This document shows positions 3,541-30,256 of a DNA stretch of 36,265 nucleotides, one piece after another. Source of the DNA: Syntrophaceae bacterium (GTDB lineage: Bacteria; Desulfobacterota; Syntrophia; Syntrophales; Smithellaceae); assembly GCA_003142535.1 (NCBI GenBank), contig PLMQ01000060.1:35879-72143 (forward strand), written 5' to 3'. The notes under the pieces are model-generated. The model was not told the DNA's origin. It saw only the letters and a list, made by a program, of their open reading frames with translations, and searched no databases. Made by a program: the position numbers and the translations under genes. The first letter of the stretch is position 1. Every line of letters begins with the position of its first letter.

Positions 3541-3709
3541 ATACCAATTCGCATTCATTCGTCTACCTTTGTTGGTGAACAGCCTACCCGACAAATGCCT
3601 GGGTCGTCGGCTCCTCAACTTATTAGTAATACGCTGGATGCCTGCCCGGCGCATGCCGGGTCGCCTCCTCCTTGCCGCCTCAATATCATCTTTGATTTAG
3701 AAATGGTAT
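3541..3709 (-). repeat. MITE-like element, copy A (169 bp)
   Basis: On the minus strand it begins ATACCATTTC and ends GAATTGGTAT, an imperfect terminal inverted repeat. It shares with copy B (30060-30203) a 19-base identical block (3663-3681 here), plus a CGTAT-ACTAA block, a GTTGAGGA-GCCGAC block and a CCAACAAAG block in the same order. Copy A carries an extra internal hairpin (CCCGGC, GCAT, GCCGGG) that copy B lacks. It encodes no protein. It sits 12 bp upstream of the broken ABC-F gene. Confidence 0.75.
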
Positions 3710-3821
3710 TCCTTCTATACGCGCTCTCGCCCGAGTAGTAAATATTCAGACTCGTCACTGAATATTTATTGTAATGATAATGTCTAATACCATTTCAAAA
3801 TATTGAAATATTGGGGATGGT
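3710..3821. other. Non-coding spacer with hairpin and a stray MITE end
   Basis: This gene-free stretch lies between MITE copy A and the insertion sequence. It contains an 11-bp perfect stem (TAAATATTCAG at 3739-3749 with CTGAATATTTA at 3758-3768). It also has AATACCATTTC at 3786-3796, an exact inverted match to the MITE end at 3700-3710. The latter may be the start of a third, truncated element. 3810-3821 is the left part of the 40-bp dispersed repeat that the insertion sequence split. No gene is seen. Confidence 0.55.
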
Positions 3822-3848
3822 GGGGCTGTTGAAAAACATTGATTTCGT

Positions 3849-4957
3849 TTATGCTTCCCCATACGAACTCCTTATTAAAAAATGATATTTTTCAACAAAG
3901 GTTGATAAATCTTTATAAATATCCGAAGCAAAACATTTCGTAATGTAAAAACAATGGCGAAATGGCCTGATAGAAGCTTTAGCCAGCCTCTTGAGATTCG
4001 TCACCGCAGCTGTGAGATATACTTGAATCGCCGGATAGATAAACTTCCCTTCCCATGATTAGAATCACGCTGAGGGGGAATGATCGCATCAGTACCTCGT
4101 TGCTCCAACGCCTTATAGTTTACAGAATGAGCATAACCCTTATCTGCTGTTACGTGTTTGATCGTTTTGTCTGTAATGATCTCAATCCGTTCGATGACTT
4201 CTACCAGTTTCGTTCCTTCATTGATTTCTCCTGTCGTCAAATCAATGTCAACCAATATCCCTGCCTTGTCGTCCACAGCCGTATGCTGTTTGTAGGTCGG
4301 CTCCAGATGGTAATTACCACTGGAAGTAGCCATCGTCGCCTCGGGATCGGTCAGGCTGACCTTCTTCGGTTTGTGGTCTCTCGTCCGTGGACGACCAAGT
4401 TTGTTAGGTGGAACATCAGGCATCTTATCATCAGCATTATCTTCTTTGTTCTCTCTTATAACATCGTTTGCATGATTCTCTACAATGCTTTCCCATGAAA
4501 CATCAGCACGGATTAAGGTCGAATCGAGATGGACTGTCTCGCCGCCTACCAAGCCCGCATCAATGCAAGCCTGAACTGTCCTAGTAAATATTGCTCTAAA
4601 CTTATCTGCGCCCCAGCGCTCCCTGATTCTGCTTAAGCTCGAATGATCTGGAAGCGTTTCTTCCAGTTCGTAACCCGCAAACCAGCGGATCGCTATATTT
4701 ACCTGGGCTTCACGCATTAGTTTACGATCATGAACGATCCCCTGAAAGAAACCGGCGAGCATGAGCCGGACAGCTGCCTCAGGATCAATACTCGGGCGTC
4801 CGTTGTCCTGACAATAGCAATCCTTTACAGCTTTGTGTAACCAGCTTAAATCTAGGACATGGTCGACGCGCTTTAATATGTGATCATCAGGAATAAATTG
4901 TTCGATATCCCCTGCAATGAAAAGACTTCGTTTGTTCCTATCTCTCCTTCCAATCAT
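3849..4957 (-). pseudogene. IS1182-family transposase, C-terminal deletion and frameshift
   Basis: The open frame runs 318 aa from ATG 4957 to TGA 4001. It has the family N-terminus (FIPDDHILKRVD, SIDPEAAVRLMLAGFF) and the first two probable catalytic aspartates (HLDSTLIRADVS; VTADKGYAHSVN). It then ends abruptly after SIRRFKY. In another frame the true C-terminus appears (AIQVYLTAAVTNLKRLAKA), ending at 3849-3851. The segment normally between them, with the third catalytic acidic residue, is missing. RRFKY and AIQVYL are read in two frames from the same bases around 4018-4033, consistent with deletion between short direct repeats. A GGAG lies 7 bases before the ATG. Confidence 0.85.
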
Positions 4958-4986
4958 CTGAACTCTCCATGAAAAGTTATGGAGAT

Positions 4987-5015
4987 ACTATAGCATAAAA
5001 ATAACTAAATGTCAA
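4987..5015 (-). promoter_or_regulatory. Sigma-70-type promoter of the transposase gene
   Basis: On the minus strand TTGACA (5010-5015) and TATAGT (4987-4992) are separated by exactly 17 bases, about 30 bp upstream of the transposase ATG. Both hexamers and the spacing are near consensus. The same hexamer pair with the same spacing occurs upstream of mraZ. Confidence 0.75.
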
Positions 5016-5115
5016 TTAATATCATATACTTATTACTGTTTTTACATTGATTTATTGAAGTTTCCTGCTGTCTCATCGTCAAATACTGGATAGATGTTTT
5101 TCAACAGCCCCATGG

Positions 5116-5144: not shown

Positions 5145-5551
5145 AACAAAATCACGGCCCCCCAAGCAAGCTTTGGAAAGCCATTCCGCAGCAAACTGTT
5201 GGGTATTATATCCCTCCTTATACGGAACAATGATATAGCCCCGCTAAGCTTCGCACGTGGGATTAATTCAGCTTGCAGATATTACTGCACTGCGCTTATA
5301 ATATCCGAGTTTCATTAATTCGGCTAACAAACTTCAATTCGCTCCGCCCAGCATCCCCATGCATTCGCCGGAGTTCCCTGCCGGGCTTTGCTTTTGGAAT
5401 TGGAGTTTCACGACCACCGCGTATGCGGGATTGTTCAACTAGCCAATTCCAATGCACTACGTTTTTGGAATTGGAGTTTCACGAATAAATCTCAGTTGGG
5501 GATGAATTATGAATAACATCCCCAACTGAGAAGTGGTATCTGTTGTTATAG
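5145..5551. repeat. Gene-free repeat-rich region
   Basis: No credible gene is seen. A 22-base direct repeat occurs at 5392-5413 and 5463-5484 (TTTTGGAATTGGAGTTTCAC then GA). Between the copies, CCAATTCCAA at 5443-5452 can pair with TTGGAATTGG at 5465-5474. Short open frames here (one of 71 codons, 5273-5488) have low-complexity, repeat-derived translations and no clear ribosome binding site, so I do not call them. The stretch ends with the hairpin at 5491-5530. Confidence 0.5.
5491..5530 (-). terminator. Perfect 14-bp stem-loop after the VIT-vWA gene
   Basis: CTCAGTTGGGGATG (5491-5504) pairs perfectly with CATCCCCAACTGAG (5517-5530), leaving a 12-base A/T-rich loop. It starts 21 bp after the stop codon of the minus-strand VIT-vWA gene. 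On the minus strand it is followed by ATTTATTC, only a weak U-tract, so it may be a terminator, an mRNA-stabilising hairpin or a block to antisense reading. Confidence 0.6.
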
Positions 5552-29926: not shown

Positions 29927-30059
29927 GCAAAAAATTTAACTTTTTTTCGATTAACTGACTTAAAATCACTAAGAAAACAGGTAAAACAAGACAGAAAAAA
30001 TTTGATGGAATTTAAACTGGCCACCGCTGGAGATTTTTATGCCGATAAAATGGCTGTTG
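29927..30059. other. Non-coding spacer between mraZ promoter and MITE copy B
   Basis: This stretch is A/T-rich, including a seven-T run at 29941-29947. I see no gene, terminator or named element in it. A plus-strand open frame crossing it (29891-30130) runs from the mraZ promoter into the MITE and has no ribosome binding site. Confidence 0.5.
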
Positions 30060-30203
30060 ATACCATTTCGCTTTCAAAGGATAACGAGGCGGCAAGGAGG
30101 AGGCTCCGCAGGCGTATCACTAACCCGTGACCTTCAGGTTATACGTTGAGGAAGCCGACAATGCTGCCAACAAAGAAGTTAGCCTGCGAGCGCGAAATGG
30201 TAT
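30060..30203 (+). repeat. MITE-like element, copy B (144 bp)
   Basis: It has perfect 12-bp terminal inverted repeats: ATACCATTTCGC at 30060-30071 and GCGAAATGGTAT at 30192-30203. Internal blocks match copy A at 3541-3709 in order, including a 19-base identity (30086-30104). It has no coding capacity. Flanking TA dinucleotides fall within the termini, so a TA target duplication of the IS630/Tc1 kind is possible but unproven. It separates mltG-ruvX from the dcw promoter. Confidence 0.75.
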
Positions 30204-30256
30204 GACCACCTGATAATTACTATATCTGCCTGTATCTTGCATCGGACAGAGATAAC

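Follow-up and report, generated by a model that had tools for sequence, protein, structure and literature searches.

The two copies in the window

The window, i.e., the whole stretch of 36,265 bp analyzed here, corresponds to C52:35879-72143 in a 2.93-Mb Syntrophaceae genome assembled into 70 contigs. A first-pass annotation had reported a MITE-like repeat family with copies at 30060-30203 (copy B) and 3541-3709 (copy A); both are present as described, and the family lies far above chance. The two copies contain the following parts.

30061..30202, + strand: MITE copy B, 142 bp, TACC...GGTA (from the terminal inverted repeats, 41 matches in its own genome, and boundaries derived from the target-site duplication)
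30058..30060, + strand: left target-site duplication TGA of copy B (from the duplication analysis)
30203..30205, + strand: right target-site duplication TGA of copy B (from the same analysis)
30086..30104, + strand: conserved left-arm block GAGGCGGCAAGGAGGAGGC of copy B
30113..30145, + strand: central host hairpin CGTA...TACG, empty form CGTATCACTAATACG, split by the 18-bp unit
30124..30141, + strand: 18-bp hairpin unit CCCGTGACCTTCAGGTTA
3542..3708, - strand: MITE copy A, 167 bp, flanks TTA/TTC
3663..3681, - strand: conserved left-arm block of copy A
3645..3660, no strand: GC-rich palindromic module CCCGGCGCATGCCGGG of copy A
3587..3603, - strand: second GC-rich hairpin module CCCAGGCATTTGTCGGG of copy A

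The perfect 12-bp ends of copy B, ATACCATTTCGC and GCGAAATGGTAT, do exist, although the outermost A/T of each belongs to the target-site duplication. The 19-base block common to both copies is GAGGCGGCAAGGAGGAGGC, which lies in opposite orientation in the two; the extra GC-rich palindrome of copy A was located at 3645-3660, and the extra segment of copy B (30124-30141) is present but exactly 18 bp long, not about 19. The TTA/TTC flanks of copy A are a decayed duplication.

Other repeats are found near copy A. An IS1182-like insertion sequence occupies 3822-5111 and has the ends GGGGCTGTTGAAAAACATTGATT; its transposase match spans one in-frame TGA. A solitary TAATACCATTTC beside it (3786-3796) is perhaps a remnant MITE end, or a chance occurrence. 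An array of a second, unrelated palindromic repeat extends over ~5190-5490, with the hairpins AACTTC..GAAGTT and CCAATTCC..GGAATTGGAGTTTCAC.

A MITE family with 3-bp target duplications

With each copy as a query, the search of its own genome returned 41 scored matches among ~150 to 180 candidates. Copies beyond the two in the window are thus numerous, and their limits fall at the inverted repeats. Two types of MITE ends were distinguished, type B (TACCATTTCGCTTTCAAAGG, as in copy B) and type A (TACCAWTTCTAAATCAAAG, as in copy A). With up to 3 mismatches, the type-A end occurs at 59 + 62 = 121 places in the genome, compared with 1 + 2 = 3 for the reversed control. Most copies are ~120 to 170 bp long, within an overall range of ~29 to 290 bp that includes truncated copies of 29 to 76 bp; the element is multicopy, dispersed, and too short to encode a transposase. 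A minimal form, at L193:12563-12607, is a 44-bp perfect palindrome that consists of both type-A ends only. It is probably a duplicated, internally deleted copy, because its left flank is the same as that of the copy at L193:7556.

On either side of the MITE, a single free base lies between a conserved T and a conserved A, and of the 97 copies in which both flanks read T-N-A, 77 have the same N left and right. Of 102 copies collected separately, 63 are flanked by identical 3-mers, in all cases TNA; 1,000 shuffles averaged 23.9 such copies and never exceeded 36. Because the flanking 3-mers match between sides, the element is delimited as TACC...GGTA with a 3-bp TNA duplication. When the flanks were joined, seven aligned empty sites were recovered in other species. 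Only 9 of the 102 insertion points fall within an ORF of at least 120 amino acids, where 77% would be expected; the MITE strongly avoids genes and is dispersed in the gaps between them. The repeat is a true MITE, and the earlier proposal of a mobilized nonautonomous element is borne out by its inverted repeats, TNA duplications, aligned empty sites, and dispersal in gene gaps.

Matches were found in 21 of the 40 genomes searched (its own included), nearly all within its own family; the named records are Smithella, Syntrophaceae, and related “Deltaproteobacteria” MAGs. The MITE is almost confined to this one family of the Syntrophales (Smithella/Syntrophaceae), across which the core block GGCGGCAAGGAGGAGGC varies from 0 to 82 copies per genome. 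Matches in Halomonas, Methylobacterium, Methylorubrum, Microvirga, and Antarcticirhabdus are probably due to chance and involve a purine-rich 19-mer. Searches of plasmids and phages gave no match.

Modular make-up of the MITE

Module-free copies (116 to 130 bp) form one long imperfect hairpin from both arms. Changes that compensate each other on both sides occur at several arm positions; their counts are indicative, because the subtypes are offset by one base in the alignment. Beyond this common fold, MITE copies differ by whole modules, the commonest being the 18-bp unit, as seen in the empty CGTATTACTAATACG versus the filled CGTATTACTAA[CCCGTGACCTTCAGGTTA]TACG. The pattern of conserved blocks separated by variable palindromes, noted from the two copies in the window, therefore holds for the family and is partly explained by short modules inserted at hairpin tips. 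For the central host hairpin of copy B, 43 empty-site matches were found, including a 98% ungapped match in L116.

In type A MITEs, a variant of the 18-bp unit occupies the other, symmetric half of this central hairpin and points the other way. The variants follow the subtypes, being mainly CCC..TTC in type B and mainly CGC..TTT in type A. Within each subtype the unit is mostly a passenger, and most units in the MITE probably go back to one insertion per subtype rather than to independent events. Hairpins related to the GC-rich module CCCGGCGCATGCCGGG of copy A also hold the 18-bp unit in their loops in other MITE copies.

An 18-bp hairpin unit with unrelated hosts

The consensus of the unit is CNYGTGACCTTYAGGTTA, which follows the scheme CNY + GTGACC-TTYA-GGTTA. 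Its 14-mer core, GTGACCTTYAGGTT, has 183 exact places in the genome against none in the control. A 15-mer of the unit is present in 46 of 51 genomes of the family and, elsewhere in the order, in 4 of 104; the control matched once overall. The numbers of units and MITEs are decoupled in places, and the unit occurs in genomes that lack the MITE: G010 combines 82 MITE core blocks with 17 units, and G009 has no core block and 5 to 6 units.

The hosts of the unit have no common sequence outside it. Besides the MITE center, they comprise CCAATTCCGA..TCGGAATTGG, CTTCAG..CTGAAG, CATTCCGGT..CCGGAATC, GGTCATTCCGGG..CCCGGAATGACC, and GTAGGGAACGGT..ACCGTTCCCTAC. In the second repeat, the abundant family that also forms the array at ~5190-5490 and whose 15-mer GAATTGGAGTTTCAC is matched exactly 122 times across the genome (control, 0), the unit is found in the hairpins CCAATTCCGA^TGCGCT...TCGGAATTGGAGTTTCAC and AACTTCAG^CGCAC...CTGAAGTT, where the caret marks the unit. 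Further contexts are the REP-like CGTCATTCCGGT^CGAAAGCCGGAATC, GGCA^TGCGCC loops, and, in G009, GTAGGGAACGGT^TCGCGACCGTTCCCTAC.

Exact tandems of 2 to 4 units have an 18-bp period, and the unit is also nested in its own loop, ACCT[CGCGTGACCTTTAGGTTA]TTAGGT. As boundaries cannot shift there, the self-nested unit must be 18 bp long and cannot have produced a target duplication. The stem is paired at all four tested positions in 110 of 124 pattern-matched units, with the alternatives T-A/T-G/C-G, G-T/C-G/A-T, and A-T/C-G/G-C (for example, CTTGTGACCTTTAGGTTA, CTTGCCACCTTTAGGTGG, and CTTGTGCCCTTTAGGGTA). What is conserved in the unit is its hairpin, beyond its letters. At L196, L279, and L296, variant units of the GTGACC, GCCACC, and GTGCCC types are stacked inside one another to a depth of several levels.

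Location of the unit at apical loops

Joining the flanks of the unit gave an ungapped match for 85 of 105 units in the genome, tandem cases included. Among the 20 nontandem site classes, 10 have an empty counterpart at another locus, and the other half have none among the loci examined.

The position of these sites relative to loops was first assessed within the genome itself, where the test is weak and suggestive only (mean stem of 4.0 versus 3.55 at other offsets) and MFE folding of the empty sites is too noisy for locating loops. The cross-species test is clear. Around 25 distinct non-self insertion points, nearly all from other genomes but including two loci of its own genome (L235 and L256), the perfect host stem has a mean of 5.36 bp, compared with means of 3.57 for control offsets (maximum, 4.08) and 3.19 for shuffles (maximum, 3.76). 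Stems of at least 6 bp surround 9 of the 25 host sites, while 1.85 are expected from the offsets. The unit sits in or beside the apical loops of palindromes.

Two probable nested layers of mobile DNA

Two nested, nonautonomous layers of mobile DNA, the MITE and the 18-bp hairpin unit, probably underlie these repeats. The copies, target-site duplications, empty sites, precise 18-bp difference, unrelated hosts, and compensatory stem changes are direct observations on the two layers. In the first layer, a MITE with the ends TACCAWTTC...GAAWTGGTA would insert at TNA and duplicate those 3 bp; a DDE transposase acting in trans, either no longer present or not recognized as such, would have moved it. 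Cut-and-paste movement of this kind is likely, given the duplications and empty sites, with the enzyme as its putative part. In the second layer, the unit would insert precisely within apical loops or at their margins and leave no target duplication, its targets being the central hairpin of the MITE, other repeat families, and its own loop. An inserted unit would then ride along on MITE transposition and give rise to one class of block-sized indels, the remainder arising from other palindromic modules.

As to how the second layer moves, precise and duplication-free insertion at exposed loops is compatible with an HUH/IS200-like single-stranded DNA event, and the unit may travel as a single-stranded hairpin by means of an equally putative enzyme. 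A bolder reading, less likely than not, is that the 18-bp hairpin is mobile in its own right and moves single-stranded into loops exposed by other hairpins or by its own kind, perhaps through a new hairpin-loop integrase. It would then rank with the smallest known units of mobile DNA. Strain-level polymorphism of the unit was not observed; this counts against the two-layer explanation and leaves present-day mobility of the unit putative.

It is rather unlikely that the unit is not self-mobile and has spread only as a passenger of host repeats and through similar hairpins that recombine or undergo gene conversion. This account gains from the finding that nearly all units within one MITE subtype are one variant and from the correlation of unit and MITE counts across genomes (Spearman 0.77). 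It is at odds with hosts that share no sequence outside the unit, with self-nested units and exact 18-bp tandems, and with units in genomes devoid of the MITE core block.

A RAYT-like Y1 (HUH) transposase, as proposed for REPs/REPINs, would likewise move the unit single-stranded, precisely, and without target duplication, but we consider its involvement doubtful. The unit has a 3-nt 5′ lead ahead of its hairpin and its insertion leaves no duplication, in keeping with such an enzyme, but the GTAG/CGTC tags that define the REP superfamilies are absent from it. Y1 genes occur in 18 of the 24 family genomes, and their number is weakly correlated with unit counts (Spearman 0.46, p 0.03), but no Y1 match was found in G012 or G015, which have 44 and 14 units, respectively. 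One Y1 locus in the genome has two tandem units ~0.5 kb away; the other 11 loci examined are without a nearby unit (1 of 12 in total).

The partner transposase of the MITE

The first-pass annotation had proposed a search for a complete, transposase-encoding element that shares the MITE ends. None was found in 24 family genomes, whose draft assemblies may be missing such an element and in which no DDE match to PF01609, PF13586, or PF13359 is flanked by TACC-type ends, and pairing of solitary MITE ends did not reveal an autonomous element. In the genome studied here, PF13359 and PF13586 gave no match, and the one DDE_Tnp_1 gene belongs to the IS1182-like copy inside the window (~3822-5111), which was rejected as the partner since its own ends, GGGGCTGTTGAAAAA, are unrelated to the MITE. 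A 1.4-kb candidate interval, L105:2512-3961, has no transposase-like ORF as judged by eye. At L192:6929-9562, a priA-like gene lies between solitary type-A ends 2.6 kb apart that are complementary at 22 of 25 positions; the duplications differ (TAA/TTA), and we do not claim a mobilized gene there.

IS5 elements of the IS1031 type duplicate 3-bp TNA upon insertion. Judged by the TNA duplication alone, the most likely enzyme for the MITE is IS5/IS1031-like. The MITE resembles the IS1031 group in this duplication and differs in that no IS5-type transposase was found between TACC ends here. An IS630/Tc1-like (TA) or other non-IS5 transposase is an improbable alternative, under which the T and A around N would be bases of the element. 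The outer T and A are indeed conserved nearly like the end bases, and no IS5-type gene with MITE ends was found, but the match of the middle N on both sides (77 of 97) is unexpected for a TA-only duplication. It is very improbable that the family is a selected structured RNA element (a regulatory or processing site) whose repeat nature is secondary: the long imperfect MITE hairpin with compensatory pairs, the G-T pairs in the stem of the unit, and the location of copies between genes would suit such an element, but transposition-required inverted repeats also yield compensatory pairs, and the TNA duplications, empty sites, large copy number differences among relatives, copies truncated to 29 to 76 bp, and lack of an Rfam match at gathering scores all speak against it.

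Relation to known repeats

In the open literature, which does not cover all journals, we found no description of either the MITE or the 18-bp unit family. The MITE is like other bacterial MITEs (PMC10969869) in being short, bounded by inverted repeats, flanked by target-site duplications, located between genes, and nonautonomous. It differs from them in that no partner transposase was found and in that its hairpin tips accept palindromic modules, so that copies differ by whole modules.

Small dispersed repeats (SDR) of cyanobacteria are cited in PMC3116915. They are likewise very small repeats of a bacterial chromosome and presumably mobile. Their sequence and hosts are different, and the 18-bp unit is distinguished from them by hairpin-loop targeting and self-nesting. 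The nearest published parallels of the unit are the nested organelle palindromes of Volvox and bacterial REPs. REPs/REPINs and palindromes tagged with GTAG/CGTC are also short, high-copy hairpins in gene gaps (PMC3116915, PMC3733652), whereas the unit described here has 18 bp, lacks the tag, and is recursive in its own loop. Some REPs sit within larger palindromes, although no palindromes unlinked to REPs were found in A. variabilis or H. neapolitanus (PMC3733652); in contrast, empty host palindromes are plentiful around the 18-bp unit. The palindromes of Volvox carteri organelles are 11 to 79 nt long, with a TTTA or TAAA loop and the plastid motif TCCCCTTTAGGGA, and are often inserted into one another (PMC2670323). 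The likeness to our unit in size, loop, and nesting is striking but one of kind only, as the unit has a fixed length of 18 bp and resides in the chromosome of an unrelated bacterium; we claim no common origin.

Dozens of related genomes offer copies of this fixed-length unit to count and align, together with exact empty sites for comparison, and the copying of a hairpin into another hairpin's loop thereby becomes a testable question. Its nesting also helps to explain the whole-block differences between MITE copies. Another palindromic module, AGTCCGCCGCAGGCGGATT, was observed in the second repeat family (L274, L276, L288, and others), and a variant of it replaces the central hairpin in some MITE copies (L051 and L188); this module may behave like the 18-bp unit.
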